Source: SAR116 cluster bacterium | GTDB lineage: Bacteria > Pseudomonadota > Alphaproteobacteria > Puniceispirillales > Puniceispirillaceae | Reading direction: 5' to 3' | Assembly (NCBI GenBank): GCA_004212735.1 | Contig: SHBD01000003.1 | Coordinates: 124,001 to 188,000, forward strand | DNA: 64,000 nt | In this document: positions 39,485 through 55,709 of the stretch, in pieces | Position numbering within the stretch: position 1 is the stretch's first letter | How the letters are laid out: every line of letters begins with the position of its first letter | Made by a program: the position numbers and the translations under genes | Notes under the pieces: generated by a model | Databases searched by the model: none | Seen by the model: the letters and a program-made list of their open reading frames with translations, nothing else | What the model was told of the DNA's origin: nothing

Positions 39485-40636
39485 ATGAACCCGCTAACCG
39501 GAACCGCGAAGAGCAAAAAATTTGCGCCAATGCGTGATGTCAGCAAGACACTTCAGATTCGTTGGTACCGTTGTCCTGTCGATAAGAAACTATTACGCGA
39601 ACTGATGACGCCCGATGACAGTCGTGGGCTGTTTTTGGCGCTCGGCCATCTTGGCCTGTGGGTAGCATCTGGGGCCGCTGCCTTTTATTTGTTTCTGCAG
39701 CAGCTATGGCTGCCGTTTGCCCTAGTGTTGTTTTGTCATGGGACAATTGCGGCGTTTCTCACCGCCCCGCATCACGAGTTATGTCATCGCACGGTGTTTC
39801 GTACCAAGTCACTGAACGAGGCTTTCCTGCGCATTTATGCGCTTATCGGCTGGAGCAATTTCGAAATCTACCAGTTCAGCCATAATTACCATCACCGTTT
39901 TACCCTTCATCCCGAGGGTGACCGTGAGGAAATCATGCCGGCGACACCATCGCTGCGTGCACTATATATCCTACAGCTTTTCACGGTGAATATCTTTGGA
40001 GGTTATCAGTCAAAGGGCTTGTTGCCGACAATGCATAATTTTCTCTGTATCGCCACAAATCGTTTTGACAATCCCTATAATTCATGGGGTGAGGAACTTT
40101 ACGAAGGCTTTGATGAGCATCGTAAGCGGGCCACAAACTGGGCCAGGATCACCTTGCTGTTTCACGCGGCACTCGTTGCCGGCGCGTTTACCATTGGACA
40201 TCCGATACTTGCATTACTGACCTCAGGCTCGCCGTTTCTGGCGAATTGGTGGCGCTATTTTGTTGGCGTGACGATGCATTGTGGTCTCAAAAGCAACGAG
40301 ACCGATTTTCGCAAATCGGTAAGGACCGTCACCCTCGATCCGGTTTCAGAATTTCTTTATTGGCATATGAATTGGCATTTGGAGCATCACATGTATGCCG
40401 GTGTCCCCTGCTACAATCTCAAAGCGCTGCACAAAGCCACGGCAGACGATATGCCCGAACCCAGAACCCTGCTTGGGGCCTGGAGAGAAATGCGTGAAAC
40501 ATGGAAAAGACAGTTGACTGATCCTGACTTTGCCTTTGATACTCCAGTACCCAGTCGTGGTGGGGTTGGTGAGGCGAATCCGGATAGTCTGGCGCGCTCA
40601 ATCGGGGATATTGGCCCGAAAGAACTGGCGCGATAG
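39485..40636 (+). CDS. Fatty acid desaturase-like membrane enzyme
   Basis: A 383-residue membrane di-iron desaturase/hydroxylase. Three histidine boxes are seen: PHHELCHRT, SHNYHHRFT and HLEHHMY near residues 97, 135 and 304. The order and spacing match the fatty acid desaturase superfamily, which also holds hydroxylases and ketolases, so the acyl substrate is not certain. It has about four membrane helices. It lies between the TetR gene and the LtnD-like gene; its stop is 51 bases from the next start. Confidence 0.85.
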   Translation: MNPLTGTAKSKKFAPMRDVSKTLQIRWYRCPVDKKLLRELMTPDDSRGLFLALGHLGLWVASGAAAFYLFLQQLWLPFALVLFCHGTIAAFLTAPHHELCHRTVFRTKSLNEAFLRIYALIGWSNFEIYQFSHNYHHRFTLHPEGDREEIMPATPSLRALYILQLFTVNIFGGYQSKGLLPTMHNFLCIATNRFDNPYNSWGEELYEGFDEHRKRATNWARITLLFHAALVAGAFTIGHPILALLTSGSPFLANWWRYFVGVTMHCGLKSNETDFRKSVRTVTLDPVSEFLYWHMNWHLEHHMYAGVPCYNLKALHKATADDMPEPRTLLGAWREMRETWKRQLTDPDFAFDTPVPSRGGVGEANPDSLARSIGDIGPKELAR

Positions 40637-40686
40637 CGTGTAATTGGGGACAATACCGCGCCCGATTTGCCTGAGAGGAAATGTGG

Positions 40687-41583
40687 ATGATGCGTGCTGG
40701 TGTGATTGGCCTCGGCGATATGGGCAGTGGTCTTGCAAAAAACCTGCTCCAGAATAGTTTTGAGACAACCGGCTTTGACCTTGACCAAAACCGGATGGAC
40801 GCTTTTGCAGCCATGGGCGGTGTTCCAGCGCAGGACGCGTCTGAGGTAGGGCAAAATGCCGACTTCGTCTTTGTCATGGTGATGACGGGCGGACAGGCAA
40901 AATCAGTGCTTTTCGGAGATGGAGATGATGGCATAGTCAGCCAGATGGCCACTGGCAGCACTGTTATCCTGACGGCAACGATAAAGCCAAATGAAGCGCG
41001 TGAAATTGGTGAAATGATGCAGGGGACCGGCGTTAATCTCATCGACAGTCCGGTCAGCGGCGGTTTTCCCGGCGCACAGGGTGGCACCCTGACGATGATG
41101 GCAGCAGGTAAGCCAGATGTGATGGCGGCCTGCGCGCCAGCTATGAATGCCGTCTCATCGACTATCCATCATGTGGGTGAGGAAGCTGGCATGGGCCAGA
41201 CGGTCAAGGCCTGTCTGCAAACGTTGATTGGTTCGATTTTCTCGGCAACTTTTGAAGCCTCTGTTCTCGCCGCCAAAGCCGGTGTTTCTGGAGAGGTGCT
41301 GCATAAGGTGTTCTCCACCTCAGGGGCGGGTTGTGGTGTCATGTCAACAGCGCTGGAGAACATCATTGACCGCAAATTCGAAAACACCGGAAGCCATATT
41401 GCCACAATGCACAAGGATCTCACCATTTCATTGGCGCTTGCCGAGGAGATGGGCGTGCCGATGCATATGGCAACAACGGCCATGCAGTTGTTTCATGCAG
41501 GAAAAACGAAGTATCCGGCTGGTGACAATTGGGTTGTGACCCGCGTCATCGAAGAGATTGTCGGCGCCGAATTGCACCGCTAG
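40687..41583 (+). CDS. NAD(P)-dependent beta-hydroxyacid dehydrogenase (LtnD-like)
   Basis: A 298-residue enzyme of the 3-hydroxyisobutyrate dehydrogenase family. The nucleotide motif is GVIGLGDMGSGLAKNLLQ, the substrate loop is DSPVSGGFPGAQGGTLTMMAAG, and the catalytic Lys is in GMGQTVKACLQT. The family oxidises beta-hydroxyacids such as L-threonate or tartronate semialdehyde. GAGAGG is 8 bases before the ATG at 40687; the ATG at 40681 is too close to it. It is the first gene of a thirteen-gene catabolic series. Confidence 0.85.
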   Translation: MMRAGVIGLGDMGSGLAKNLLQNSFETTGFDLDQNRMDAFAAMGGVPAQDASEVGQNADFVFVMVMTGGQAKSVLFGDGDDGIVSQMATGSTVILTATIKPNEAREIGEMMQGTGVNLIDSPVSGGFPGAQGGTLTMMAAGKPDVMAACAPAMNAVSSTIHHVGEEAGMGQTVKACLQTLIGSIFSATFEASVLAAKAGVSGEVLHKVFSTSGAGCGVMSTALENIIDRKFENTGSHIATMHKDLTISLALAEEMGVPMHMATTAMQLFHAGKTKYPAGDNWVVTRVIEEIVGAELHR

Positions 41584-41602
41584 ATTTTTTGGAGTTATTG
41601 TT

Positions 41603-42466
41603 ATGAAGACTGGGGTTATCTGTGACGGCATAAGCCGTGACCTTGATCATGCGCTCACAGTGATGAGCGAGTTTGATCTTGAATATGCTGAATTGCAATT
41701 CGTTTGGGACAAGGAGGTTGGTGACCATTCACCAGATGAAATCGCGAAGATTAAGGAATTGTTGAGTAGCCACAACAAGCCCGTATCCTGTCTTTCGCGT
41801 CATATTTTTGCCGGCATGACAACGGCAAATCGTCCAGGTGATGCGTTGCACGAAAAACATATGGATGCGCTCAAACGTGTGATCGCCATGGCGCATGAGG
41901 TGGGATCGCCATTGGTTCGGATCATGACCTCAAAAAAGGAGCAGATCCTGTGGGGACTTCATGGCGCCGAACATTGGAATGTGGCGAAGGGAGCGTGGGA
42001 CACACTACCGCCGCTGATCGCGCCTGCGGTTGACCTCGCTCGTGCAGAGGGGGTTAAGCTGGTGGTTGAGACGGGCAATGGCACCATGGTCAATTCAAAC
42101 TACACCGCCCGCAAATTGATTGACGAGTTGGACGCCAAGGACACGTTGCAGGTTTTGTGGGATCCGGCAAACAATTGTTGGTGTCATGAAAATGCCTTTC
42201 CCGAGGGGTATGAAGAGGTCCGAGACGGCTATCTTGGTCATCTTCACATCAAGGATGTGATGGTCGACACGCCGCGCGCCACTCTGGAAGTGCGGGAGAT
42301 GGGCAAAGGACAGTTGGCAGATCAGTTCGCGCCGATGGCCGCGGCACTCCTTGCGGACAATTATCAGGGTGTTATCTCATTTGAGAGTGTTTACCACTCC
42401 GGCAATGACAGCTTTGAGGATGGTTTTCGCAAATGTATTGACCTGTTCAAAACGCATTTTCACTGA
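41603..42466 (+). CDS. Sugar phosphate isomerase/epimerase-type TIM-barrel protein
   Basis: A 287-residue AP_endonuc_2-type barrel. MKTGVICDGISRDLDHAL, VVETGNGTMVNSNYTARKLID, LQVLWDPANNCWC, GYLGHLHIKDVMV and ISFESVYHS contribute likely metal ligands (E, D, H, E). Relatives isomerise or epimerise ketoses, or dehydrate dehydroshikimate or inosose. The ATG at 41603 has GGAG upstream. The reaction is unknown. It lies between an LtnD-like dehydrogenase and a LacI regulator. Confidence 0.8.
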   Translation: MKTGVICDGISRDLDHALTVMSEFDLEYAELQFVWDKEVGDHSPDEIAKIKELLSSHNKPVSCLSRHIFAGMTTANRPGDALHEKHMDALKRVIAMAHEVGSPLVRIMTSKKEQILWGLHGAEHWNVAKGAWDTLPPLIAPAVDLARAEGVKLVVETGNGTMVNSNYTARKLIDELDAKDTLQVLWDPANNCWCHENAFPEGYEEVRDGYLGHLHIKDVMVDTPRATLEVREMGKGQLADQFAPMAAALLADNYQGVISFESVYHSGNDSFEDGFRKCIDLFKTHFH

Positions 42467-42479
42467 AAGGTGAGGTGAT

Positions 42480-43514
42480 GTGGCTCGAAGCTCACGTAAA
42501 AACCGTCTCGAGGATATAGCCCGCCACGCAGGCGTCGGCGTGGCAACAGTGGATCGAGTGCTGAACGAGCGCGGTGGTGTAAGTGAGAAAACAACCGCCA
42601 GAGTTCTTGCGAGCGCCCAGTCTCTCGGAACAAAGCGTGTTCTGCCTAGCAATCGAGAACGTCGGTTGTCAATTGAGGCTGTGCTTTTTCGCAATCATTC
42701 GGCGTTTTACTCCCGGTTGAATCAGGCTCTCAAGGAAGTCACCAAATTGGCCGACATTCCGGCAACAATATATCGGACGCATATAGATGTTGACGATCCT
42801 GAGCGTCTGATAAGCCATCTGGAGGCAGTTGCCGAAAGCCGCGATGGGATTATTCTGTTCGCCAGCGACCTACCGCAGATTTCGGATGCCATCAAACGGC
42901 TTGCCAAACAAACAACCATCGTGACGATAAGCACCGATATTCCTGATAGCGCACGTCATTGCTACATTGGTATTGATAATTTCAATGCGGGGCAGTCCGC
43001 AGCAAAGATCAGCGAGGCTATTTGCCGGAAGGGGGGGCGTATCCTCATCATCGAACCCGATCCGACGGCCTGGGCGCAAATGGAACGCTTCAAGGGGTTC
43101 CAGCAGTTTTTTGCCAATCGCGGCGAGGAGGAAAAACTGCGCCGGTTCTATCAGACAAAGCCGCTGACCTTGGCGCTTGGTGAAGTCATTGCCTTGTTAC
43201 AGGCTGAGGAGGATATCCGCGTCCTCTACAGCCCGATCAACAACGAGTTTCTTGAGATGCTCGTTGAGGCCGGTAGGCATGAAACTACAATCCGCTCAGT
43301 CGCCAAGATCGTGCATGACCTAAGCCCTCATTCAATCAAAAACCTGCAATCAGGTTTGATCGATATTGTCCTGGATTCCAACCCTATGCAGCAGGTTTTT
43401 CAGGCCGTTGAATTTATCTCTGAGCAACATGGATATGTGACAAAACTGGAGAGCTCGGTGGTGGATTTCCAACTTTATACATCGGATAATCTGCCGCGCA
43501 CACAATTTATCTAA
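42480..43514 (+). CDS. LacI family transcriptional regulator
   Basis: A 344-residue regulator. The DNA-binding headpiece is RLEDIARHAGVGVATVDRVLNERGGVSEKTTARVLASAQSLG (residues 9-50). A periplasmic-binding-type effector domain follows (IPATIYRTHIDVDDPERLI, YIGIDNFNAGQSAAKI, GRILIIEPDPTAWAQMERFKGF), typical of sugar-binding LacI proteins. The start is GTG, preceded by AGGTGAT. Two similar palindromes, at 43559 and 52575, are candidate binding sites, which would link this operon with the ABC transporter. Confidence 0.9.
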   Translation: MARSSRKNRLEDIARHAGVGVATVDRVLNERGGVSEKTTARVLASAQSLGTKRVLPSNRERRLSIEAVLFRNHSAFYSRLNQALKEVTKLADIPATIYRTHIDVDDPERLISHLEAVAESRDGIILFASDLPQISDAIKRLAKQTTIVTISTDIPDSARHCYIGIDNFNAGQSAAKISEAICRKGGRILIIEPDPTAWAQMERFKGFQQFFANRGEEEKLRRFYQTKPLTLALGEVIALLQAEEDIRVLYSPINNEFLEMLVEAGRHETTIRSVAKIVHDLSPHSIKNLQSGLIDIVLDSNPMQQVFQAVEFISEQHGYVTKLESSVVDFQLYTSDNLPRTQFI

Positions 43515-43558: not shown

Positions 43559-43578
43559 AATGATGAATTTACATCATT
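43559..43578. promoter_or_regulatory. Candidate LacI-type operator, copy 1
   Basis: AATGATGAATTTACATCATT contains TGATG-N6-CATCA. It lies just upstream of a TTGACC hexamer and 95 bases before the hydratase start. A very similar sequence with the same spacing is at 52575, before the ABC transporter operon. Confidence 0.6.
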
Positions 43579-43672
43579 TTTGACCTATCCCCATATGCTA
43601 AATTACTGTTGGTTTAGGTGTGTAATTGGGCGTTGGTGCGCTACTGCCACTGCCTGTGAGGAAGGGAAAAAC

Positions 43673-44461
43673 ATGCGGAACGCCGTCTTGGACAAGCTGG
43701 CTGATGACCTCGCCGCGGCGTGGCCAAATCCGGCACAGCCGGTGAAACTGACGCGTGATATGTTTCCTCTCGACAGAGCTGAAGCCTATGATGTTCAGGA
43801 TCAAATGCACCTCCTCCTTGGTCAAGGTCTCGCCGGCTGGAAAGTTGGAGCGACAAGCCAGAAGATGCGTGAGCTCGATGGTCATGATGATGTCATACCC
43901 GGTCGGATTTTTGCCACGCGCAGTTATGTTGGGCCAAAACATGATTTACTGATTTCTGATTTTCCAAATGCACGGGTCGAGACTGAGTTTGCCTTTCGCC
44001 TGGTCGAGGCGCCTGTCATGCGACGTACTCCGTGGACCGCAGCAGAGCTTGTTCCGATGATGACGCTGCATCCCGCAATCGAAATCATCGGAAATCGCTA
44101 TATCGTTGAAGATGCAAGCAAGGCTGAAAACTCTTTGCTGACAATTGCCGATAACGGCGGCGGGATGGCATTTGTCTTTGGTTATGAAGTCAAGGATTGG
44201 CAGGGCACCGACTTTCAGAATCATCCGATCTCGCTATCTGTTAGCGGTGCCGATGCAGCGGAAAATTTCCTTGGTGAGATGCGCTGCGTGCCCGCTGAAG
44301 CAGTGGCCGATCTGGTTAATCATCTTGCTGCGCGTGGGTATGAATTGGCAGCTGGTGATTTCGTGTCGACAGGTGCGGCAACGGTTCCACAGCCATTTGT
44401 GGCTGGTGACAATGTCATAGCGGATTTTGGGTCACTTGGTATCATCGAGTTACAATTTTAA
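43673..44461 (+). CDS. 2-keto-4-pentenoate hydratase/FAH family enzyme
   Basis: A 262-residue protein of the MhpD/2-oxopent-4-enoate hydratase group. Typical segments are GQGLAGWKVGATSQKMRELDG, RVETEFAFRLVE, ETEFA (metal ligands), HPAIEIIGNRY, and GDFVSTGAATVPQPFVAGDNV near the C-terminus. It would hydrate or decarboxylate an unsaturated keto-acid. GAGGAAGGG precedes the ATG at 43673. It follows the LacI gene after a gap with a candidate operator, so it may be separately induced. Confidence 0.85.
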   Translation: MRNAVLDKLADDLAAAWPNPAQPVKLTRDMFPLDRAEAYDVQDQMHLLLGQGLAGWKVGATSQKMRELDGHDDVIPGRIFATRSYVGPKHDLLISDFPNARVETEFAFRLVEAPVMRRTPWTAAELVPMMTLHPAIEIIGNRYIVEDASKAENSLLTIADNGGGMAFVFGYEVKDWQGTDFQNHPISLSVSGADAAENFLGEMRCVPAEAVADLVNHLAARGYELAAGDFVSTGAATVPQPFVAGDNVIADFGSLGIIELQF

Positions 44462-44493
44462 GCAATGGGTTTGGCTAATAGGGGGCATGATCG

Positions 44494-44955
44494 TTGATTG
44501 ACGTGCTGATAATTTTTGGCCCCAATCTGAACATGCTTGGGACACGTGAGCCGCAGATCTATGGCAGCGATACGATGGTCGACATAATGTCTTCATTGGA
44601 GACGCAGGCTAGCAGGCTTGGGCTCAATATCTCCATGATGCAGTCGAATGATGAGGGTGAGTTGGTGATAGCCATTCAAAAGGCCTGCATTACGGCGAGG
44701 GCAATTCTGTTCAATCTTGCTGCCTATACACATACTTCGGTTGTTTTGCGCGACGCTGTTGCGATGTTTGATGGGCCACGGGTTGAGGTGCATATGTCGA
44801 ATAACTACCAGCGTGAGTCCTTTCGACAGATCAGCCTGACCGCTCCCGTCAGTAGTGGCGCCATTATCGGTTTCGGTGTGGACTCCTTCCTGCTTGGTCT
44901 TGATGCGGTTGATCGCCTTTTAGACGGGAATGGGGGCAAAGATCAAAAATCATGA
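44494..44955 (+). CDS. aroQ: Type II 3-dehydroquinate dehydratase
   Basis: A 153-residue dehydroquinase that turns 3-dehydroquinate into 3-dehydroshikimate. The motifs are GPNLNMLGTREPQIYG (Arg and Tyr of the active site), NLAAYTHTSVVLRDA, and VEVHMSNNYQRESF (Glu and His). The second motif has Leu where most biosynthetic AroQ proteins have Pro, and the HREPFR-like segment is altered. Its setting in a catabolic operon argues for a degradative role. The start is TTG with AGGGGG 8 bases upstream. A dehydratase of another cyclic acid cannot be ruled out. Confidence 0.82.
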   Translation: MIDVLIIFGPNLNMLGTREPQIYGSDTMVDIMSSLETQASRLGLNISMMQSNDEGELVIAIQKACITARAILFNLAAYTHTSVVLRDAVAMFDGPRVEVHMSNNYQRESFRQISLTAPVSSGAIIGFGVDSFLLGLDAVDRLLDGNGGKDQKS

Positions 44956-44977
44956 AAGGCGTGATGGAGGTGGAACA

Positions 44978-45922
44978 ATGACCGAGCCAATTCAAAAAGT
45001 GATGGTGATGGGCGCCGGCGGTATGGGAGCGTTGTTTGGTGCCATCCTTGCTGAGGGTGGGTTCGATGTTGTGCTTGTCGATAATGACCACGATCATATT
45101 GACGCCATTCGAGAGGATGGGCTGCATATTTCTGGCCTTGGGGGGGAGCGGTACCAGCGGATCACTGCAGAATATGAAGCCAGTGAGGTGACAGAGCCGC
45201 ATTTGGTTCTGGTGCAGTGCAAGGGAACAGCGACTGCGGATGCCGCGAAGGCGATGGCCCATCTCGCTGGCACCAACACGATTTTCATCAGTTTTCAGAA
45301 CGGTCTTGGCAATGAGGACACCCTCGCCGAGCATTTTGGGGCGGAGAACGTATTTGGAGGTTTGACGTCAATGGCCGGCGCACGTCTGGGGCCGGGCCAT
45401 ATTCAGGATTTTGACAGGGTGCCATCCTATATCGGTGAATGGAGTGGGGGCTTGTCAGATCGCGTCGATAGAATTGCTGTCGCTTTCACCGCTGCTGGGT
45501 TGGAGACCAAGGCCAGTGCCAATATTAAGACCGAAATATGGAAGAAGCTGCTTGGCAACATGACGATGAGCGCCGTCTCAGGGATTGCCAATCTAACCAG
45601 TACGGAAATTTTGCAGATTGAAGCCCTGCGCAAAGTTTGTTTTGCGGCACTGGATGAAGCGATTTCAATTGCTCATTCCGAAGGGGTGATGCTTGAAAAA
45701 AGTGCCGTTGTCGAAGGTTTGGAAATGATGACGGCACCTGGCGGCACTGGAGACAACAAGTCCTCCTTGTGCCTTGATGTTCTGGCGAAGCGGCAGAGCG
45801 AGGTTGAATTCATCTATGGGAAGCCGCTTGCACTTGCTGAAAAGGCAGGGCTTGTCGTGCCAACACTACGCGCATTGTATGGCTTAGTGAAGGGCATCGA
45901 AACACATTACGTAAAGGAATGA
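44978..45922 (+). CDS. 2-dehydropantoate 2-reductase family (ApbA/PanE-like)
   Basis: A 314-residue NADPH-type reductase. The nucleotide motif is KVMVMGAGGMGALFGAILAEGG, the loop FISFQNGLGNEDTLAEHFGAENVFGG is typical of ApbA, and the catalytic Lys is in NIKTEIWKKLLGNMTMSAVS. In this operon it more likely oxidises or reduces a pathway hydroxyacid than pantoate. GGAGGTGG lies just before the ATG at 44978. It starts 22 bases after the dehydroquinase and is followed 4 bases later by an SDR gene. Confidence 0.85.
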   Translation: MTEPIQKVMVMGAGGMGALFGAILAEGGFDVVLVDNDHDHIDAIREDGLHISGLGGERYQRITAEYEASEVTEPHLVLVQCKGTATADAAKAMAHLAGTNTIFISFQNGLGNEDTLAEHFGAENVFGGLTSMAGARLGPGHIQDFDRVPSYIGEWSGGLSDRVDRIAVAFTAAGLETKASANIKTEIWKKLLGNMTMSAVSGIANLTSTEILQIEALRKVCFAALDEAISIAHSEGVMLEKSAVVEGLEMMTAPGGTGDNKSSLCLDVLAKRQSEVEFIYGKPLALAEKAGLVVPTLRALYGLVKGIETHYVKE

Positions 45923-45926
45923 CGCA

Positions 45927-46715
45927 ATGACAAACCGATTTGATGGAAAGAAAGCCTTTGTTTCTGGCGGTTCGCGTGGGATTGGCCGTGCCATCGCAAT
46001 GCGTCTTGCCAGTGAAGGGGCAGACGTCATGATATCCGGATCGCAGCAACGTCACCTTGACGCCGCCCTTGCCGCAATTGCTGAGAAAGCATCGGGCAAG
46101 GTGCTGACGTATGCTGCTGATCTCAGAGAGATGGCAGGATGCGAAGCCGCCTTTGCCGCGCATGATGCGGCCTTTGGGGGGTGCGATATTCTGGTGCATA
46201 GTGCTGGCGCAACAAAAGGTGGGGCGTTTCCCGCACAGCCTGATGCTGATTTTCAAGATGGCTTTGCCCTCAAATTTCATGCAGCCGTGCGGCTTTCTCG
46301 CCTGTTCTGGCCATCGCTTGTGGAATCGCATGGCAATGTGGTGATGGTCGTTGGCGGCGCTGCGCGGACACCTGATCATAAATTCATGGTTGGTGGTGCC
46401 GTCAATGCGGCTTTGGCGAACTATTCAAAAGCGCTCGCAGGCCAAGGGTTGATCGATGATGTGAATGTGAACTGGGTCAGCCCGGGGCAGACAGAGACCG
46501 AACGCCTGCAAGGGTTGCTTGAAACACGCGCGCGCGACGAGGGTAAAACCGTAGATGAAGTGCGCGCTGAACGGATGAACCAGGAGGGTATCAGGCGTCT
46601 CGGCAGGCCAGAGGACACCGCGGCGTTGGTGTCGTTCCTGTGCAGCTATGAGGCACGCCACATCCATGGCACCGGGATCAGTGTTGATGGCGGTGCCACA
46701 AAGGGATGTTTTTGA
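45927..46715 (+). CDS. SDR family protein lacking the catalytic Tyr-x3-Lys motif
   Basis: A 262-residue short-chain dehydrogenase-like protein. The Rossmann motif FVSGGSRGIGRAIAMRLASEGADV and LVHSAGATKGG are normal, and VSPGQTETERLQG and DGGA sit where expected. The catalytic section reads FMVGGAVNAALANYSKAL, with no Tyr four residues before a Lys in the usual place. It may use another residue, bind ligand without redox chemistry, or be an NAD-binding partner. Its TGA overlaps the next ATG (TGATG). Confidence 0.8.
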   Translation: MTNRFDGKKAFVSGGSRGIGRAIAMRLASEGADVMISGSQQRHLDAALAAIAEKASGKVLTYAADLREMAGCEAAFAAHDAAFGGCDILVHSAGATKGGAFPAQPDADFQDGFALKFHAAVRLSRLFWPSLVESHGNVVMVVGGAARTPDHKFMVGGAVNAALANYSKALAGQGLIDDVNVNWVSPGQTETERLQGLLETRARDEGKTVDEVRAERMNQEGIRRLGRPEDTAALVSFLCSYEARHIHGTGISVDGGATKGCF

Positions 46716-47887
46716 TGGATTTTACCCTTACCGAAGAACAGCGTCTTCTTGTTGAGACGATCCGAGAATTTGTCCGACGTGAGCTAAAACCGCTTGAGGA
46801 GGGTGTCGAGACAAGTGGCTATCTGGCTGATGAGGTGGCAAGCGAAATACAGGAGAAATCAAGGGGACTGGGGCTTTACGCGATCAATATTCCTCGTGAA
46901 TTTGGCGGCGGTGGCCTCTCAGTTCTTGAATGGATGATGGCCGAAGAGCAGTTTGGCCGCACATCCGATATTTTGATCAGACGCGCGTTTGGCAATGTCT
47001 ATGAAATTCTGCTGGAGGCAAGTGAAAAACAGAAGCAGACCTATCTGTTACCGGCAGTAAGAGGAGAAAGGACGTTTTCCATAGCGTTCACCGAGCCTGA
47101 GGCGGGCTCTGACGCTGCGGCAATCAAAACGAAAGCAGAACGGTCCGGTAAAGGCTGGATTTTGAATGGAGCGAAGCATTTCATATCTGATGGGCTGTTT
47201 TCAGATTTCTTTGTGGTGACAGCAGTTACCGATCCAGCTACTGGCGCCCGGGGTATCTCTACCTTCATCGTGGAAAAGGGAATGACGGGTTTTACCGTTG
47301 GGCGTGATCAACCAATGATGGGATTGCGCGGCACCTCGCATGTTGAGATGCAATTTAAGGATGTTGTGCTGTCCAACGACCATCTGCTTGGCCACGAGGG
47401 GCAGGGTTTGAAACTAGCCTTGGCGACGCTTGGCCGTGTTCGCCTCGCCCAAGTGGTGGCACGGTCCATCGGCAAAGCTACGCTGGTGATGGATCAATGT
47501 CTCGATTATGCGCGTGAGCGCCGCCAGTTTGGTGCGCCGATAGGTGATTTTCAGATGGTTCAGCAGATGTTGGCGGATTCGGCCATGGAGATCAATGCAA
47601 CGCGCCTTGCACTCTGGCACACGGCGAGCCGACTTGATGCGGGAGAGGAGGTGCGGGGTAGCATTTCCATGATGAAGGTACAGGCGGCCGAGATGATGGG
47701 CCGTGTCGTTGATCGCGCCGTGCAGATCTTTGGCGGGGCTGGCTATTGCCGCGATTTGCCAATCGAGCGGTATTACAGGGATGCCCGCATCTATCGAATT
47801 TATGATGGCACTTCGGAAATCCATCGTGCGGTTTTGGCCAAGCAGATGATGCGCGGTGACAGCTCTGTCTACGATATTTACGGGTAA
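46715..47887 (+). CDS. Acyl-CoA dehydrogenase
   Basis: A 390-residue flavoenzyme. The N-terminal helical domain starts MDFTLTEEQRLLVETIREFVRREL, and the FAD/acyl-CoA site is FSIAFTEPEAGSDAAAIKTKAE. The C-terminal signature is RDARIYRIYDGTSEIHRAVLAKQM, where Asp stands at the catalytic base position usually held by Glu (IYEGT in MCAD). The Asp form is known in some ACAD subgroups. It would desaturate the CoA ester made by the neighbouring CoA-transferase. AAGGGA stands 8 bases before the ATG. Confidence 0.9.
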   Translation: MDFTLTEEQRLLVETIREFVRRELKPLEEGVETSGYLADEVASEIQEKSRGLGLYAINIPREFGGGGLSVLEWMMAEEQFGRTSDILIRRAFGNVYEILLEASEKQKQTYLLPAVRGERTFSIAFTEPEAGSDAAAIKTKAERSGKGWILNGAKHFISDGLFSDFFVVTAVTDPATGARGISTFIVEKGMTGFTVGRDQPMMGLRGTSHVEMQFKDVVLSNDHLLGHEGQGLKLALATLGRVRLAQVVARSIGKATLVMDQCLDYARERRQFGAPIGDFQMVQQMLADSAMEINATRLALWHTASRLDAGEEVRGSISMMKVQAAEMMGRVVDRAVQIFGGAGYCRDLPIERYYRDARIYRIYDGTSEIHRAVLAKQMMRGDSSVYDIYG

Positions 47888-47892
47888 GTGAA

Positions 47893-49437
47893 ATGGGTAA
47901 AACACAATTCCTGTCTGCTGATGAGGCAGCGGCACTCATTGAGGACAAATCCGTTGTCGGCCTTGTGGGCGGTGGCGGCGGTCTGGTTGAAGCCAGTCTG
48001 TTGCATGAAGCCGTTGAGCGGCGCTTTCTGAAGACGGGTCATCCTCAGAGCATTACCTGTATTCATGCGCTGGGCATTGGTGACCGACAGGAACGCGGCA
48101 TGAACCGGTTTGCTCATAAGGGTATGACGAGCAAGGTGATTGGTGGCCATTGGGTCTGGTCACCGCGCATGCAACAGATGGCCCGTGATAATGACATTGA
48201 GGCCTATGTTCTGCCCGGTGGGGTTATCATGCAATTGATGCGTGAGGTTGCTGCCGGTCGACCCGGCTTGATTACGCATGTGGGTCTTGGCACGTTCGTC
48301 GACCCGCGCTTTGATGGGGGGCGTATGAATGATGCCGCGAAGGCCAACCTGACCGAGGTGATCACCATTGATGGAAAGGATTATCTGCGATATCTGCCGA
48401 TCCCTGTTTCAGTGGCCCTGCTTCGCGGTAGCTATGCTGATGAGGATGGCAATATTTCACTTGAAGAAGAGCCCGCAAATCTCGACATCTACGCGATGGC
48501 AGCGGCGGCGCATAACAGCGGTGGCAAGGTGATTTTTCAGGTCAAGGGCCGGGTTCCGAGAAACAGCATGAAAGCCCGCGAAGTTAGAATCCCGGCCGCG
48601 CTGGTTGACGTGGTGGTGATTGATGAGAGCCAGCGACAGGGATATGAGCTTGTCTATGACGCCGCTGTATCGGGTGAGCGATTTACCCATGACCTTGAAG
48701 CACAGACAGTACAGTTTTCACCCCGACTGGTTATCGCCAAACGTGCCCGTCAAGAATTGGTCGATGACGCGGTGATTAATTTCGGCTTCGGCATTCCCGA
48801 TCAGGTGGCAAAATTAATTGCCAGGGATGGCATGTCGGATCGCTACTACCAGACGATCGAGCATGGAACCTATGGCGGGCGCTTAATGGATGGCGATTTG
48901 TTTGGGTATGCGATGAACCCGAACTGCATGATTGATGGCCCATCTCAATTCGATTTCTATTCGGGTGGTGGACTGGATATCGCCTTTCTTGGGTTTGGTG
49001 AAATTGATGCCGCAGGGAATGTGAATGTCTCCAAACTGGCAGGAAATACAGTTGGGCCTGGCGGCTTTATCGACATTGCCCAAAACGCCCATGTAGTGGT
49101 TTTCTGTGGCACCTTCGACACGGGCGGCACGCGGCTGGAAATTGGAAAAGGACGCCTTGAGATTGTGGCACATGGCCGTATCGCCAAGCTGGTAAATGAG
49201 GTGGATCAAATTACCTTTTCCGGCGCTCAGGCGCTTGCTCAGGGTCAGCGAATAATTTACGTAACAGAGCGCGCTGTTTTTGAACTTACGGAAGAAGGGG
49301 TTAGCCTGATTGAAATTGCCCCCGGGGTGGATCTGGAGCGCGATATTCTCAACCGGATGGGGTTTGCACCATATGTTGGCGTGGCACCGCGTGTGATGGA
49401 TGGATTGTTGTTCACGGATGTTGAGGGAGAGACCTGA
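47893..49437 (+). CDS. CoA-transferase (fused alpha-beta subunits)
   Basis: A 514-residue class I CoA-transferase with both subunits in one chain. The alpha part has VVGLVGGGGGLVEASLLHEAVE, the beta part has VINFGFGIPDQVAKLIARDG, and the active Glu is most likely in QTIEHGTYGGRL. It would move CoA from acetyl-CoA or succinyl-CoA to a pathway acid, supplying the acyl-CoA dehydrogenase encoded just upstream. The start is six bases after the previous stop. The stop overlaps the next gene (TGATG). Confidence 0.88.
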   Translation: MGKTQFLSADEAAALIEDKSVVGLVGGGGGLVEASLLHEAVERRFLKTGHPQSITCIHALGIGDRQERGMNRFAHKGMTSKVIGGHWVWSPRMQQMARDNDIEAYVLPGGVIMQLMREVAAGRPGLITHVGLGTFVDPRFDGGRMNDAAKANLTEVITIDGKDYLRYLPIPVSVALLRGSYADEDGNISLEEEPANLDIYAMAAAAHNSGGKVIFQVKGRVPRNSMKAREVRIPAALVDVVVIDESQRQGYELVYDAAVSGERFTHDLEAQTVQFSPRLVIAKRARQELVDDAVINFGFGIPDQVAKLIARDGMSDRYYQTIEHGTYGGRLMDGDLFGYAMNPNCMIDGPSQFDFYSGGGLDIAFLGFGEIDAAGNVNVSKLAGNTVGPGGFIDIAQNAHVVVFCGTFDTGGTRLEIGKGRLEIVAHGRIAKLVNEVDQITFSGAQALAQGQRIIYVTERAVFELTEEGVSLIEIAPGVDLERDILNRMGFAPYVGVAPRVMDGLLFTDVEGET

Positions 49438-50477
49438 TGGACAATGTTAGGGTTGGTTTGATTGGCGCTGGCTCGATCGGCGCCCGGCACATGAAGGCGA
49501 TGGAGGACGTGCCGGAAATCACCCTTGCCGCGATAGCGGACCCCTCACCCGCAACAGTCCAGATAGCAGCGGCGCGGAGCATCCCTCTTTACCCCGATGT
49601 CGGCGCGATGTTGGCAAAGGGCGGTATTGATGCGGTAATCATCGCCACACCAACCGAGCGTCATCATCAGGATATCATGATGGCGCTTGAGGCTGGTCAG
49701 ACTGTTTTGGTCGAAAAGCCGATTACTGCGACTCTTGAAGAAGCAGATGAAGTGACACGTTTTGCTGAAAAACAGGGCTGTCACGTTCTGGTCGGGCACC
49801 AACGGCGGTATTATCCTTGTGCGGCAATGGCACGTGAAATCATCGCACAGGGGCGCATCGGTAAATTGATGGCGGTGACGGGCCAATGGACAACCCGAAA
49901 GGATGATGATTACTACAACGCTGCTTGGCGGCGCGATGTGAAGGCCGGCCCGATTCTAACTAATCTGATCCATGAAATCGATCTACTGCGCTTTATCTGC
50001 GGGGATATCGCCACGGTCTCGGCTGAGATGACACATCATGATCAGGAATTTAGCAAAGAGGATGCAGTCGCAATCAGCATGAAATTTACCAATTCTGCGG
50101 TTGGCACCTTCCTGCTGTCAGACCGTACACCAACGCCCTGGACATGGGAAATGGCCCTTGGTGAAAATGTGCGTTTTCCAAAGACCGGCCAGAATGCGAT
50201 CCGCTTTCTTGGAACTGAGGGAGCGCTTGATTTCCCAAATCTGACTCTCTGGTCACATGCCAGCGAGGATGGCAACTGGCATGACGAAATCACGGCTGAG
50301 CGTATCGAGACACCCTTTATCGATGCCTATATTGCCCAATGCAGACATCTCTGCGCAATCGTGCGCGGCACTGAAACACCAATCATTGATGCCAGAAATG
50401 GCAGCAAATCACTTGCAGCAACGCTGGCGGCAGCCAATTCAGCGGCCAGTGGCAGGCGTGTAATTCTGGAACAATAG
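49437..50477 (+). CDS. Gfo/Idh/MocA family oxidoreductase
   Basis: A 346-residue NAD(P)-binding dehydrogenase. The nucleotide motif is RVGLIGAGSIGARHMKAMEDV, the central site is VEKPITATLEEADEVTRF (EKP with the catalytic Lys), and the later segment is PILTNLIHEIDLLRFICGD with the conserved HEID. Family members oxidise inositols, sugars or quinate/shikimate-type polyols. This fits a polyol or cyclitol acid pathway. The ATG overlaps the CoA-transferase stop. Confidence 0.88.
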   Translation: MDNVRVGLIGAGSIGARHMKAMEDVPEITLAAIADPSPATVQIAAARSIPLYPDVGAMLAKGGIDAVIIATPTERHHQDIMMALEAGQTVLVEKPITATLEEADEVTRFAEKQGCHVLVGHQRRYYPCAAMAREIIAQGRIGKLMAVTGQWTTRKDDDYYNAAWRRDVKAGPILTNLIHEIDLLRFICGDIATVSAEMTHHDQEFSKEDAVAISMKFTNSAVGTFLLSDRTPTPWTWEMALGENVRFPKTGQNAIRFLGTEGALDFPNLTLWSHASEDGNWHDEITAERIETPFIDAYIAQCRHLCAIVRGTETPIIDARNGSKSLAATLAAANSAASGRRVILEQ

Positions 50478-50487
50478 CGAGGCGAGG

Positions 50488-50919
50488 ATGGAAGATTTCT
50501 ATGTAAAAATTGGTGACAGCACCAGCTTTACCAAAACAGTATCTGAGAGCGATGTTTACCAATTTGCTGGTATCACCGGTGATTTTTCACCCAATCACGT
50601 GAATAAAGTCTATATGGAAAAATCATCCTATGGCCGTTTGATGGCTCATGGCGCCTTGATTGTTGGTTTCATGTCCACTGTTTCGACAAATGTCATAGCG
50701 CATTGCAGGGACGCCGATGAAACACCGGTTTCAGTAGGATATGACAAGATCAGATTTCTCAAGCCAGTGTTTTTGGGGGATACAGTGACGCTGACCTATA
50801 CGATCAGCGCGATTGATAGTGAGCGCAAAAGATCCGTTGGCAAAATTGAGGTGGTCAATCAGGATGATGAGTTGGTTGCGGTTGGTGACCATATTCTGCA
50901 GTGGGTGCCAAATGGCTGA
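50488..50919 (+). CDS. MaoC-like (R)-specific enoyl-CoA hydratase
   Basis: A 143-residue hot-dog protein. The hydratase signature is FAGITGDFSPNHVNKVYMEKSSYGRLMAHGALIVGFMS, with the catalytic Asp and His in GDFSPNH. It would hydrate the enoyl-CoA produced by the acyl-CoA dehydrogenase. The start has GAGGCGAGG upstream and lies 10 bases after the Gfo/Idh gene. Confidence 0.9.
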   Translation: MEDFYVKIGDSTSFTKTVSESDVYQFAGITGDFSPNHVNKVYMEKSSYGRLMAHGALIVGFMSTVSTNVIAHCRDADETPVSVGYDKIRFLKPVFLGDTVTLTYTISAIDSERKRSVGKIEVVNQDDELVAVGDHILQWVPNG

Positions 50920-50977
50920 GGTGCCGGGTTGGGAACCGATGGTTACTTGATGCGGACACAAAATGGGGAGTCTTAGG

Positions 50978-51715
50978 ATGCGGAAACCGATGGATATTGA
51001 GGGCCAGGCGTTCATTGTGACCGGTGCTGCAAAAGGGATTGGCCTTGCTATCAGCACCCTGTTTCACCAGTTGGGCGCACGGGTTTCGGGGTGGGATCTG
51101 GACGACAGCGGCATGCGTGATAATCCGGTCTTTACGGATACGCAGATCGTTGACGTGTCTGATGAAAGCCAGACGCGTGCTGGTTTTGCGGCCTCGTTGG
51201 CAGCGCTTGGTGATATTGACGGCATCGTTGCGAATGCTGGGATTAATGGGCCGACAAAACCGCTATGGGACTATTCTCTTGATGAGTGGCAATCGGTGAT
51301 ATCCGTTGATCTCACGGGCGTGTTTTTGTCAGTGCAGGCATCTCTTCATCATCTGCGTGCCCGCAAGCGAGGACGGATTATCATCATTTCTTCCGTCGCT
51401 GGAAAGGAGGGCAATCCCGGTGCCGTGCCTTATGGTGCAGCGAAAGCAGGTGTGATCGGGTTTGCCAAAGGGCTGGCGCGGGAGATATTGCCGTCCGATA
51501 TCACGGTGAATTGCATTGCTCCATCGATTGCGGTCACCGATCTGCTCGATGGGATGACTGATGAATATATTGCCGACAAAAAGAGCCGTATCCCGATGGG
51601 GCGGTTCTGCACCCCCGAGGAAATTGCCAACATGGCGGCTTTCATCGCGTCGCCTGCCTGCAGCTTTACCACTGGGCAGGTTTTTGATGTAACCGGTGGG
51701 CGCGCCACATGGTAG
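50978..51715 (+). CDS. SDR family 3-hydroxyacyl/ketone dehydrogenase
   Basis: A 245-residue short-chain dehydrogenase with intact motifs: FIVTGAAKGIGLAIS, NAGINGPTKPLW, ISSVAGKEGNPGAVPYGAAKAGV (Ser, Tyr and Lys) and FDVTGGRATW at the end. It could act on a 3-hydroxyacyl-CoA from the MaoC hydratase or on a free cyclic alcohol. GGGGAG is 7 bases before the ATG at 50978. It overlaps the next gene by 7 bases. Confidence 0.87.
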   Translation: MRKPMDIEGQAFIVTGAAKGIGLAISTLFHQLGARVSGWDLDDSGMRDNPVFTDTQIVDVSDESQTRAGFAASLAALGDIDGIVANAGINGPTKPLWDYSLDEWQSVISVDLTGVFLSVQASLHHLRARKRGRIIIISSVAGKEGNPGAVPYGAAKAGVIGFAKGLAREILPSDITVNCIAPSIAVTDLLDGMTDEYIADKKSRIPMGRFCTPEEIANMAAFIASPACSFTTGQVFDVTGGRATW

Positions 51716-52533
51716 TGCCGGTGCGGCCACTGGGGCTTGATGATCTTTGCGTTCATCAGGTTTGCCTGTCTGGACAATGTGATTTTGCTTCCTCGCTTGC
51801 CCATTTGGTGGCTGCTGGAATGAAGCGCACGTCCCTGTGGAACCCAATGATTGAAACCTGTGGTGAAGGAAAGGCGCTGTCAATCTGGAATGATAGTGGG
51901 CTGATCGCAGAATCGCTTTGTGTGGCTGAGCTGTTTGCGGGGTCTGATGCGTTACGCGCCATGCTGGACAGGGCGGATTTGTTTCAGGCGCGTACGCTGG
52001 TTTTGATCACGGGAGGGCTTGAGACTGCCGGTTTTGAGGGCGGGATTGATCAGGCCAGAACATACCTGCCGGAGCTGTTGGCGCAGGCGAATGAACTAGC
52101 GATACCCTACAATGTGCGATTGGCCTTTGAGCCATTGCATCCGATGGTGTGTGGTCACAGATCCATAGTCTCCAGTCTCGGCGAAACACTCGACCTGCTG
52201 GATCAGGTGGGGCCGGCCAATGAAATCGGCCTTGCCATCGACACTTATGCGCTCTGGTGGGAGGACCGGTTGGATCAGAAGTTGACCAGGGCGGGCAAAC
52301 GTATTCTGAATTATCATGTGTCGGATTGGTTGTCTGATACCTCTGATTTGCGTCTGGATCGGGGTATGCCGGGTGATGGTCAGATCAATTTGCTGCGATG
52401 GCGGGCAATGCTCGAACAGGCGGGCTATAGTGGGCCGGTAGAAATCGAGATTTTTTCGCGCGACCGTTGGTGGAAACGGACGCCCGAATCAATGCTACAC
52501 CGTATCCGTGAGGGCCTTAATGTTGCGTACTGA
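51709..52533 (+). CDS. Sugar phosphate isomerase/epimerase-type TIM-barrel protein
   Basis: A 274-residue AP_endonuc_2-type barrel, only distantly similar to the one at 41603. Candidate ligands are LAFEPLHPM (Glu), GLAIDTYALWW (Asp), LNYHVSDW (His) and PVEIEIFSRDRWW (Glu). Relatives include hydroxypyruvate isomerase-like, dehydroshikimate dehydratase (AsbF-like) and inosose dehydratase enzymes. As the last gene of the enzyme series, it might replace the decayed QuiC-type enzyme at 57781, but this is speculation. Confidence 0.8.
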   Translation: MVVPVRPLGLDDLCVHQVCLSGQCDFASSLAHLVAAGMKRTSLWNPMIETCGEGKALSIWNDSGLIAESLCVAELFAGSDALRAMLDRADLFQARTLVLITGGLETAGFEGGIDQARTYLPELLAQANELAIPYNVRLAFEPLHPMVCGHRSIVSSLGETLDLLDQVGPANEIGLAIDTYALWWEDRLDQKLTRAGKRILNYHVSDWLSDTSDLRLDRGMPGDGQINLLRWRAMLEQAGYSGPVEIEIFSRDRWWKRTPESMLHRIREGLNVAY

Positions 52534-52574
52534 GTGAGGGGTGTCAGAAGAATGAGATACTCACTTCAGGCAAA

Positions 52575-52594
52575 AATGATGATATTTCATCAAA
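52575..52594. promoter_or_regulatory. Candidate LacI-type operator, copy 2
   Basis: AATGATGATATTTCATCAAA contains TGATG-N6-CATCA, matching the site at 43559 in 15 of 20 positions with the same arm spacing. It lies about 140 bases before the first gene of the ABC transporter operon. Confidence 0.6.
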
Positions 52595-52596
52595 AT

Positions 52597-52622
52597 TGCC
52601 CTTTACTTGCCCAAATATGCCC
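52597..52622. repeat. Three TGCCC direct repeats at helical spacing
   Basis: TGCCC occurs at 52597, 52608 and 52618, that is 11 then 10 bases apart, directly after the operator-like palindrome. They sit on one face of the helix, as sites for a cooperative regulator might. I see no gene in the 200-base gap. Confidence 0.3.
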
Positions 52623-52733: not shown

Positions 52734-53471
52734 GTGCTTCAGATTAATGATGTGCACGCTGGCTATGGCAATCTGAAAATATTGCGTGGCGTGAATATGC
52801 AGGTGCCAACTGGTGGTATCGTCACGCTGCTTGGTGGTAACGGTACTGGTAAATCCACTTTGCTGAAGGCTGTTTCAGGATTGATCCCATTGATGGAGGG
52901 TGAGGTTCTGTTCGATGGTGTAGGCCTTTCGGGCATGAAACCTCATGAACGGATGCGCCTTGGCCTTGTTCAGGTAACCCAGGCCAAAGAGGCCTACCCA
53001 GCGATGACGGTTGAGGAAAATCTGGTGCTTGGCGCCTACACCCGCCGTGACCGCGCAGCTGCCGCGGTAGATCTGGAACGCGTCTACGAATTTTTTCCGG
53101 TACTTCGCGAGAGACGCAAGCAATTGTCTGGCACTTTATCTGGTGGTGAAGTTCAAATGTTGGTAATTGGTCGTGGCCTGATGGCCAAGCCAAAAATGCT
53201 GATGCTTGATGAACCCAGTGCTGCGCTGGCGCCGAAAGTTGTGTTGGAGATTTTTTCCAACATCAACCGGATTGCCAAGACTGGCGTGACAATTCTGGTT
53301 GTTGAACAGAATGTGCGGATGGCGCTGATCCTTGCCCAATATGGTTACATCATTCGGGATGGTGTAATCATGATGGAGGGTGAGGCAAAAAAATTGATCA
53401 GCGATCCGGCTGTCAAGGAGTCTTTCCTTGGTGGCTCAGTGGCAAATTCATCTAAGGCGCTCAGGAAATGA
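52734..53471 (+). CDS. livF: ABC transporter ATPase, branched-chain amino acid type (LivF-like)
   Basis: A 245-residue ATPase. Walker A is GGNGTGKST, the signature is TLSGGEVQMLVIGRGLMAKPKMLMLDEPSAALAPKV (with Walker B), and the switch is VVEQNVRMAL. The pattern VTLLGGNGTGKSTLLKAVSGLIPLMEGEVLFDG is LivF-like. A GTG start follows GGGGGAATCGG. The usual order puts LivF last; here it leads the operon. The family carries amino acids, but also aromatic acids and amides, so the ligand is open. Confidence 0.92.
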   Translation: MLQINDVHAGYGNLKILRGVNMQVPTGGIVTLLGGNGTGKSTLLKAVSGLIPLMEGEVLFDGVGLSGMKPHERMRLGLVQVTQAKEAYPAMTVEENLVLGAYTRRDRAAAAVDLERVYEFFPVLRERRKQLSGTLSGGEVQMLVIGRGLMAKPKMLMLDEPSAALAPKVVLEIFSNINRIAKTGVTILVVEQNVRMALILAQYGYIIRDGVIMMEGEAKKLISDPAVKESFLGGSVANSSKALRK

Positions 53472-53498
53472 GCTGCAGTACCGCGGGGAAAAGATAAC

Positions 53499-54410
53499 AT
53501 GGGTTTTGATTATAACTCGCTGTTAGCATTTATCATTTTTGGCGTCACGATTGGCGTTGTCTATGGCATTGTCGCCCTTGGCATTTCGTTGATTTATTCA
53601 GGTTTGGATATTGTGCATTTTGCCCACGGTGAGATGTATATGTTCGGAGCCTTTTTTGGCCTTGTTCTTGCCCACAATGTTGGTGTTCCTTATCCAATTG
53701 CATTGATTGGGGCAATGGTGCTTACCGCATTGCTGGGAATGGCGGTGGAACGGGTATTCTACCGACGCCTTACCCGTGCTGGTGGAGGTTATACAGTTGC
53801 TGGCATGGGGATGATCATTTGCGGATTTGGTATGTCTGTAGCGCTTGTGAATGTCGCCTATTTTATTTGGGGCGCAGAGGCCGAGCCTTTCCGAGCCAAC
53901 CTTGACTATATTCCCCGATTGAGTTTTCCCGGAGATATTGAGGTCCCTGAAAGTTATGTACTGACGGCGATTATTTCTGTCGCCTTGATGGCTGCTCTGC
54001 ATTACTTCCTTCGTCATACAAAAACTGGCTTGGCTGTCAGAGCGGTTGCCCACAACAAGGATATCGCTTATCTGATGGGAATTAACGTCCCATTGATGAT
54101 CTCCTTGATCTTTGGTCTTGCTTGCGGACTTGGGGCGGCCGCGGGAGTATTGATTGGGCCGATGCAGTCGGTTCAAGTTGAAATGGGTTACTTGATGCTT
54201 ATGAAAGCCTTCGCGGCTGCTGTGGTTGGCGGATTTGGCTCGCTGCCGGGAGCAATCATTGGTGGTATAATGGTAGGCGTGTTCGAAAATCTTGGCGCGG
54301 CCTACATTTCGGCAAGCCATAAAGATATTTATGCATTTTTGCTGTTGATCCTTGTGCTGATGTTTAAACCATCAGGGCTGTTGGGGGTTGACGCAAAAGT
54401 AAAGGCGTAG
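53499..54410 (+). CDS. livH: ABC transporter permease, branched-chain amino acid type (LivH-like)
   Basis: A 303-residue inner membrane permease with eight or so helices. The family marker is GLDIVHFAHGEMYMFGAFFG near residue 33, and HTKTGLAVRAVAHNKDIAYLMGINV is the ATPase-contact loop. KAFAAAVVGGFGSLPGAIIGGIMVG is conserved at the C-terminus. It follows LivF by 27 bases and precedes the binding protein. Confidence 0.92.
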   Translation: MGFDYNSLLAFIIFGVTIGVVYGIVALGISLIYSGLDIVHFAHGEMYMFGAFFGLVLAHNVGVPYPIALIGAMVLTALLGMAVERVFYRRLTRAGGGYTVAGMGMIICGFGMSVALVNVAYFIWGAEAEPFRANLDYIPRLSFPGDIEVPESYVLTAIISVALMAALHYFLRHTKTGLAVRAVAHNKDIAYLMGINVPLMISLIFGLACGLGAAAGVLIGPMQSVQVEMGYLMLMKAFAAAVVGGFGSLPGAIIGGIMVGVFENLGAAYISASHKDIYAFLLLILVLMFKPSGLLGVDAKVKA

Positions 54411-54466
54411 TGATTGAAAAATCATTACAAGGGTATTCAACCTAGATAAGAAAACTGGAGGAAAAA

Positions 54467-55663
54467 ATGCGAATATTAAATAAAATGTTTGCCGGTGTAG
54501 TTGCTGCCGGTATCGGCATTACTGCCACCGCTGCCTTCGCTGACGATATCAGAGTCGGCATTACCATGAGAATGGTGAGTGAGAATGGTCAAGCCTATGG
54601 CCAGATGATGATGGATGAAATCAAGGGTATAAATGAATCGGGCGGTATCAATGGCAACATGATCAAAGCCACCCTAATGAATGACGAATGCAAGTCAGAC
54701 AAGGGTGTCGCTAATGCGAACAAAATGGTGTTTCAGGAAAAGGTTCACCTCCTAATTGGCTCAAGTTGCTCGTCAGTGACACTCCCTATTGTGGACGTTA
54801 CAGCCAAAGCCGGCGTGCCGCAGTTGGTTCCTCACTCAACTAATTCAAAAATCACCCAAAAAGGAAGTGAGTGGATTTTCCGTGTTCCTGTCTCAGGCCG
54901 TTACTATGGTGGGGTAAATGCCAAATATGTTGGCGAGAATATTGGAACGAAAATCGCTTATATCTGTGCAGCAGATGCTGCGTCTGTTGGTGATTGTGCC
55001 AACATGGAAAAGCAGATGAAGGCCCGCTTTGGAGTAGAGCCTGCGTATCGTGCTGACGTGCAGGAGAAGGAAGTGGATTTCCGCTCGCATATGCAGAAAA
55101 TTAAGTCAATGGATGTTGATGGAATTCTTGTTGCTGCTCTTGCAGAGACAATGGCACGTGCGCTTGTTCAGTCGTATGAGGCTGGCATTGGTGAAGATGT
55201 CCGCCGCATCGGTTCGTCATCAGCATCAAATGCTCCTGTGCCAAAGATTGCTGGAGACGCAGCAAAAGGTGTGTTTTTCACAGCTGCGTACGCCGCTGCT
55301 GACCAGCGTCCGATTGCCAAACTTTTCAACGAAATGGTAAAGACACGTTATGGCATTCACGCGCCGGACCATGATTTTTCACAAGCATATGATTTGGTGA
55401 GAATTATGGAAATTGCGCTCAAGAACACAAACTTCACAGGCTCTCTTGCCGATGACCGTACGGCTATTCGCGACGCAATTGCCAATGTTCAGGGGTACGA
55501 GGGACTTGCTTCAGGCCCAATCAGTTTCTGTGCTGCGGCAACACCACAGTGTCGTGACGGTAACAGAACAGCTGTTCTGATCGGTTACACAAAGGGCGGT
55601 GAGAACTTTGAAACAGAGGTTCTGGCCCGCGTGACTATGGAGCCGGATTTTGGCCTGGAATAG
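54467..55663 (+). CDS. ABC transporter periplasmic binding protein, branched-chain amino acid type
   Basis: A 398-residue secreted receptor with a clear signal peptide (residues 1-25, ending AFA-DDI). The type 1 fold pattern IRVGITMRMVSENGQAYGQMMMDEIKGINESGGINGNMI is present. Two Cys pairs are possible: DECKSD with SSCSS, and YICAADAASVGDC. Family ligands range from leucine to amides, urea and aromatic acids. No fixed ligand can be assigned. A 10-base hairpin follows the gene. Confidence 0.9.
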   Translation: MRILNKMFAGVVAAGIGITATAAFADDIRVGITMRMVSENGQAYGQMMMDEIKGINESGGINGNMIKATLMNDECKSDKGVANANKMVFQEKVHLLIGSSCSSVTLPIVDVTAKAGVPQLVPHSTNSKITQKGSEWIFRVPVSGRYYGGVNAKYVGENIGTKIAYICAADAASVGDCANMEKQMKARFGVEPAYRADVQEKEVDFRSHMQKIKSMDVDGILVAALAETMARALVQSYEAGIGEDVRRIGSSSASNAPVPKIAGDAAKGVFFTAAYAAADQRPIAKLFNEMVKTRYGIHAPDHDFSQAYDLVRIMEIALKNTNFTGSLADDRTAIRDAIANVQGYEGLASGPISFCAAATPQCRDGNRTAVLIGYTKGGENFETEVLARVTMEPDFGLE

Positions 55664-55685
55664 GTCTATAATTCGCTAAAATAAG

Positions 55686-55709
55686 CGGTGCAGGCAACGG
55701 CCTGCACCG
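55686..55709 (+). other. 10-bp hairpin after the binding-protein gene
   Basis: CGGTGCAGGC and GCCTGCACCG flank a 4-base loop, with no T tract. Its position between binding-protein and permease genes matches the hairpin at 32738, suggesting control of subunit ratio. Confidence 0.6.

Follow-up and report, generated by a model that had tools for sequence, protein, structure and literature searches.

Palindromes in a SAR116 gene cluster

We analysed a 64,000-nt stretch (the window) of contig SHBD01000003.1 from a SAR116 cluster bacterium, the source genome of which comprises 2.49 Mb in 66 contigs and is 96% complete. Between positions 39485 and 57622 of the window all genes lie on one strand (+), from a desaturase-like gene through livFHKMG, and two of the gaps between them hold matching palindromes, A and B. 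A first reading of the letters alone (the sequence-only reading) had reported these palindromes at 43559-43578 and 52575-52594, outside genes, with a shared TGATG-N6-CATCA, one after a LacI-family gene and before a hydratase gene and the other before livF, and had interpreted them as a LacI-family regulon. Coordinates, pattern and gene context were all borne out, and a recount gave the same 15 of 20 identical positions between A and B. Comparative evidence (recurrence of the site in the same gaps of relatives, its occurrence together with an ortholog of the regulator, and a probable third site) supports the interpretation, and we consider it highly probable that the LacI-family regulator encoded at 42480-43514 uses the palindromes as its operators, in a local regulon.

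43559-43578, no strand: predicted operator A, AATGATGAATTTACATCATT, in the 158 nt that separate the LacI stop (43514) from the hydratase ATG (43673)
52575-52594, no strand: predicted operator B, AATGATGATATTTCATCAAA, in the 200 nt that separate the stop of the TIM-barrel gene (52533) from livF (52734)
42480-43514, + strand: LacI-family regulator, 344 amino acids, with a LacI helix-turn-helix (HTH) and a Peripla_BP_4 effector domain
43673-52533, + strand: unit A, ten enzyme genes named from domain assignments, with putative operon limits
52734-57622, + strand: unit B, LIV-type ABC transporter livF, livH, livK, livM, livG

Unit A encodes, in order, a hydratase-like protein, a class II dehydroquinase, a ketopantoate-reductase-like protein, a short-chain dehydrogenase/reductase (SDR), an acyl-coenzyme A (CoA) dehydrogenase, a CoA-transferase, a Gfo/Idh/MocA protein, a MaoC protein, a second SDR and a TIM-barrel protein. 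We took ATG 43673 as the hydratase start from alignment to relatives; TTG 43580 does not coincide with the start seen in that alignment.

The window contains two exact copies of the 16-bp pattern (43561-43576 and 52577-52592). Shuffled windows contain 0.30 copies on average and 4 of 100 reach at least two, so the count by itself is merely mildly unusual. Across the whole genome there are 11 exact copies; the nine outside the window all fall within open reading frames of 120-975 amino acids, the 120-amino-acid frame being the least certain gene, and a reversed control pattern has no copy genome-wide. The sequence-only reading had held that frequent occurrence at random genome positions would count against a regulon: such occurrence is seen in coding sequence (nine of the 11 copies) and not otherwise. 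With its AT-rich flanks added, the pattern (WWTGAKGNNNNNNCATCAWW) is found at A, at B and at one further place in the genome.

Conservation of the sites in relatives

Conservation in relatives, the second ground on which the regulon could have failed, was examined with the pattern as fixed from the source genome alone, and that genome is counted among the records. The gap between the LacI and hydratase genes carries the pattern with at most one mismatch in 13 of 14 records, five of them exact (source, G011, G012, G049 and G008), and G002 alone lacks it. Between the TIM-barrel gene and livF, all ten records have it with at most one mismatch and eight exactly. First-order surrogates of the individual gaps reached the same level in only 1 to 12 of 400 cases. 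G011 and G012 belong to the same genus as the source genome and are not independent of it; in G048 the LacI gene is present and the contig ends before gap A. Because the site recurs at both gaps in relatives, A and B are beyond chance.

The gene order of unit A is likewise conserved across SAR116 relatives so far as assembled, with the exception of G009, in whose unit A no match to the dehydroquinase was found. In 254,235 bp of the relatives' cluster loci we counted 47 matches with at most one mismatch, 23 of which are at A, B or the third site (C, described below) and 24 elsewhere (one exact). Pairwise identity of the half-sites is 0.86 at A (n = 12), 0.95 at B (n = 8) and 0.79 at C (n = 6), and that of the 40 nt upstream of the sites is 0.29, 0.32 and 0.30, respectively; anchoring of the ungapped alignment on the motif inflates the half-site values but has no part in the surrogate test.

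Variation between genomes is patterned. Site A reads TGAGG-N6-CATCA in G054, G057, G051, G056, G007 and UBA12010; among these, G054, G051, G056 and G007 have an exact B, UBA12010 has TGATT-N6-CATCA at B, and gap B of G057 is not assembled. In G014 and G009, the LacI proteins of which are 49% identical to that of the source genome, one half-site is relaxed to GATCA or AATCA. Such variants would fit a graded affinity, with B above A.

The LacI-hydratase gap of G014 (L037:14437-14760) also contains about six copies of a repeat of about 51 nt with CATCATCCGGCTAGAG...CCGAAAGATGATCG, an array resembling repetitive extragenic palindromes just before operator A.

The regulator and its association with the sites

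The regulator has an N-terminal LacI HTH (PF00356, E = 8.2e-12, 45.2 bits against a cut-off of 27) and a C-terminal Peripla_BP_4 effector domain (PF13407, E = 6.4e-21). Its recognition helix, GxATVDRV(L/M)N, is identical in all 13 aligned sequences, which include the source protein and one paralog. Three LacI-type HTH domains occur in the genome at E <= 0.001, and the helices of the other two differ (QSAVSRV and RPTVSKY). In Escherichia coli, PurR and LacI operators are palindromes to which the protein binds as a dimer, with contacts of the recognition helix to bases about 4-8 from the centre. The SAR116 palindrome is comparable in its predicted reading by a dimer and differs in its half-site and in the lack of a central CG; the helix ATVDRV has Asp where LacI has Ser.

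Relatives of the regulator were found at E <= 1e-20 in 12 of the 61 genomes of the family, source included, and at E <= 1e-50 in 12 of 136 genomes of the order, the same genomes as in the family search. A contig scan covering the best 80 of 119 relatives gave ten loci with at least 49% identity, after which identity falls to about 30% in rhizobia. We did not count these rhizobial homologues as orthologs, and no matrix score of at least 11 was found in three rhizobial loci (L053, L054 and L062) and one Burkholderiales locus (L073).

Wherever an ortholog and the relevant gap are both assembled, the site is present with at most one mismatch: in 12 of 12 records for gap A (source included) and in nine of nine for gap B. 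The LacI gene stands directly upstream of site A in each of the 11 relatives in which both are assembled. Natural losses bear on the same association. The hydratase occurs in 11 of the 61 family genomes, two of which, G002 (77% complete) and G008 (64% complete), gave no LacI match. In G002 site A has decayed, with a score of 14.8 and the left half lost; G008 is taken up below.

Two further LacI relatives were noticed. The source genome contains a fragment (L025, G000:C6:35033-35593) that is 48% identical, corresponds to residues 158-344 and has one internal stop. G012 has a fuller relative with the same helix (L036:10867-11868), on the contig that carries its LIV genes and about 8 kb away from them.

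A weaker third site and autoregulation

A site missed by the sequence-only reading lies ahead of the genes that precede the LacI gene. These genes share its strand and are separated by short gaps, and together with it they form a putative unit C.

39381-39400, no strand: candidate operator C (weaker), CCTGATGGAAAAACCTCATT, ahead of the desaturase gene and differing from the pattern by one mismatch
39485-42466, + strand: unit C genes upstream of LacI, with putative operon structure
39485-40636, + strand: desaturase-like gene heading unit C
40681-41583, + strand: hydroxyacid-dehydrogenase-like gene of unit C
41603-42466, + strand: TIM-barrel gene of unit C, upstream of LacI

Site C scores 18.9 with a matrix constructed from A and B. 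Random sequence of the composition of the window yields 1.4 sites scoring at least 12 per 64 kb, and two other window positions score 13-14 (31794 and 51369, the latter within an annotated SDR gene). Upstream of the LacI unit, a site with at most one mismatch is found in four of 11 records (source, G048, G056 and G009), and one with exactly two mismatches in another four (G011, G012, G049 and G014). Since site C precedes the unit that holds the LacI gene, the regulator is probably autoregulated through it.

Predicted regulon and its place in the LacI family

In the model that we favour, a LacI homodimer would bind each palindrome, each HTH reading one TGATG half-site. The ten enzyme genes would be controlled through operator A, the LIV-type transporter through operator B and the regulator's own unit through operator C. 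The operators adjoin the presumed promoters or stand immediately ahead of them, and bound protein would most probably repress by hindering RNA polymerase; repression would be lifted once a pathway metabolite, the presumed effector, is bound by the periplasmic-binding-protein-like domain.

These features can be set beside the local LacI regulons surveyed by Ravcheev et al. (2014, PMC4052901). In that survey, operators are even palindromes of 16-22 bp, 72% of regulators are autoregulated and more than 75% of sites lie 140 to 30 nt ahead of a start codon. The SAR116 sites are even (a 16-bp core in a 20-bp site) and lie 84-139 nt ahead of start codons, the regulator gene is beside its predicted targets and probably autoregulated, and enzymes and a transporter would be under one regulator, as in the surveyed regulons. 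Unlike those regulons, the targets here are an acyl-CoA/dehydroquinase-type pathway and a LIV-type transporter. The centre of the site also differs: among 1,251 surveyed regulators with even palindromes, 1,173 have a CG centre, 49 another pair and 29 a degenerate one (PMC4052901), which places the AT-rich SAR116 centre in a minority of 78 of 1,251 without a CG consensus. We would describe the system as a typical local LacI regulon with a minority, CG-less centre; apart from this operator, the type of regulation is ordinary. Among the papers listed in searches of open-licence literature on LacI regulons, LacI activation, SAR116/Puniceispirillum and quinate we found no description of this regulon, which is not proof of absence.

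Several observations weigh against an assignment of the sites to this regulator. None of 32 A, B and C rows has a CG centre (by eye), unlike most LacI-family operators. At least one copy of the flank-extended pattern is present in 38 of the 61 family genomes; as no more than 12 of these carry the LacI gene, the sequence alone is not specific. In G008 the adjacent LacI gene is lost, its last codons alone remaining beside A, and yet A and B are intact; as this genome is about 64% complete, a LacI copy elsewhere is possible. Site C is weak and was found by a matrix derived from A and B. It has three or more mismatches in three of the 11 records (G057, G002 and G007), and between 28 and 92 of 400 surrogates do as well as its two-mismatch versions; two mismatches being this common, only the four records with at most one mismatch are persuasive. 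Finally, a scan for consensus sigma-70 promoters at A and B found none, which makes the placement of promoters tentative.

Upstream of the LacI remnant, G008 has a second promoter-like stretch (L166:18625-19400) with TGATN8ATCA and TTCCTGTTGG.

Promoter context and sign of regulation

Candidate promoter elements follow both operators at a shared offset.

43580-43585, + strand: TTGACC, possible -35 element, beginning 4 nt past the core of operator A
52596-52601, + strand: TTGCCC, possible -35 element, at the same offset past the core of operator B

By eye, TTG stands 4 nt past the core in seven of 14 A rows and TGTTGG 28 nt past the 20-bp site in eight of 14 (one row is cut by a contig end), and TACTAT or TATCAT stands 31 nt past the core in five of ten B rows, with GACTAT in the source genome. 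Identity over the 10 nt to the right of the site is 0.67 at A, 0.59 at B and 0.32 at C. At A and in many B and C rows the conserved right flank (TTTTTG at A) lies towards the promoter, and only in some B rows does it lie away from it; it is probably promoter sequence and not a longer operator half-site.

The same protein might act at the same sites as an activator or dual regulator, its dimer upstream of a weak promoter aiding RNA polymerase, and we regard this as possible though clearly the lesser prospect. The fixed spacing of TTG and TGTTGG at A and the conservation of the right flank would suit such contacts, as would the failure to find a consensus promoter if these promoters depend on an activator. 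Most LacI-family proteins, however, are repressors. In addition, the -10-like element lies about 26 nt past the core at A and 31 nt at B, a difference of about half a helical turn that a single activating contact tolerates badly. Because of this difference and of the prevalence of repression in the family, regulation is probably repressive. Activation has a precedent in FruR/Cra, which can repress or activate and activates genes of gluconeogenesis (PMC4052901); Cra is a global regulator, whereas the SAR116 regulator is seemingly local to one cluster. A more specific proposal, which we hold to be doubtful, is that a SAR116-specific regulator with an Asp-type helix (ATVDRV) acts through three graded, CG-less TGATG operators immediately ahead of weak promoters as an activator or dual regulator, switching on a complete and as yet undescribed pathway for a hydroaromatic acid, or a related one, with LIV-type uptake.

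Other explanations of the palindromes

That another DNA-binding protein uses the sites, the LacI gene being adjacent for a different reason, is unlikely. It would account for G008, which retains both sites beside no LacI gene, and for a centre that is not CG. Against it stand the pairing of site and LacI ortholog in 12 of 12 gap A records, the position of the gene directly upstream of A in 11 of 11 relatives, the decay of site A in G002, which has no LacI match, and the form of the site, a 16-bp even palindrome that fits the LacI family as surveyed (PMC4052901).

We rejected, as very improbable, a reading of the palindromes as RNA hairpins (a terminator or processing site). In the source genome A folds at -5.4 kcal/mol, which 10 of 200 shuffles match, and is followed by a T run; B with its flanks folds at -12.8 kcal/mol, matched by none of 200. 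In four relatives whose A site is of the TGAGG type, however, a moderate hairpin (equalled by 28 of 200 shuffles) is seen once and is absent from the other three (86, 133 and 126 of 200), and the DNA motif is kept; a terminator scan was negative at A and B, and no T run follows B. A chance pair of unrelated palindromes in AT-rich gaps, to which the 4 of 100 window shuffles and the nine copies in coding sequence lend some colour, is scarcely credible given recurrence at both gaps across genera with diverged flanks.

Pathway and substrate

A LacI-family regulon of this kind would join ten enzymes of marine SAR116 bacteria with a transporter and a regulator as one functional unit. This would narrow down the possible substrate, and the LacI protein would be a ready sensor with which to find it. 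The genome has two class II dehydroquinases, one of them in the cluster; the copy elsewhere scores higher for the family, and this points to a catabolic role for the one in the cluster.

Related clusters occur in other families. In a class sample of 385 genomes, the hydratase was matched at E <= 1e-45 in five (source, G014, G334, G502 and G256), the last three of which belong to two other families of alphaproteobacteria. Their cluster stretches (L178, L179 and L180) contain most of the same enzymes and a LIV transporter in rearranged order. We found in these stretches no match to LacI (E 1e-8), the desaturase or the dehydroquinase, no site with at most one mismatch in the cluster gaps, and no regulator family among nine neighbouring frames; the three matches with at most one mismatch are in gfo, in livG and in a 760-amino-acid frame without a Pfam match. 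The lack of a dehydroquinase match speaks against plain quinate as the sole substrate, and these clusters are useful for guessing what the substrate is.

Behind livG lies a gene resembling QuiC, a dehydroshikimate dehydratase with a 4-hydroxyphenylpyruvate dioxygenase (HPPD)-like part. Together with the CoA-transferase, acyl-CoA dehydrogenase and MaoC genes, it hints at a hydroaromatic or related acid as substrate; family names give weak leads, and we offer this assignment as a lead. In G012, a candidate site close to the QuiC-like gene (L036:19878, score 17.0) was set aside, as no comparable score occurs beside that gene in the window or in the G056 locus L032. The G012 protein scores 643.5 bits, under the cut-off of 1200, and the source protein, from a shortened gene, 351.9 bits. 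The latter gene (57781-58782) encodes 333 amino acids, compared with 630 in G012 (L036:17166-19058), and tblastn aligns it to no more than two disjoint segments of the G012 gene; about 245 amino acids between them thus seem to be missing in the source genome.

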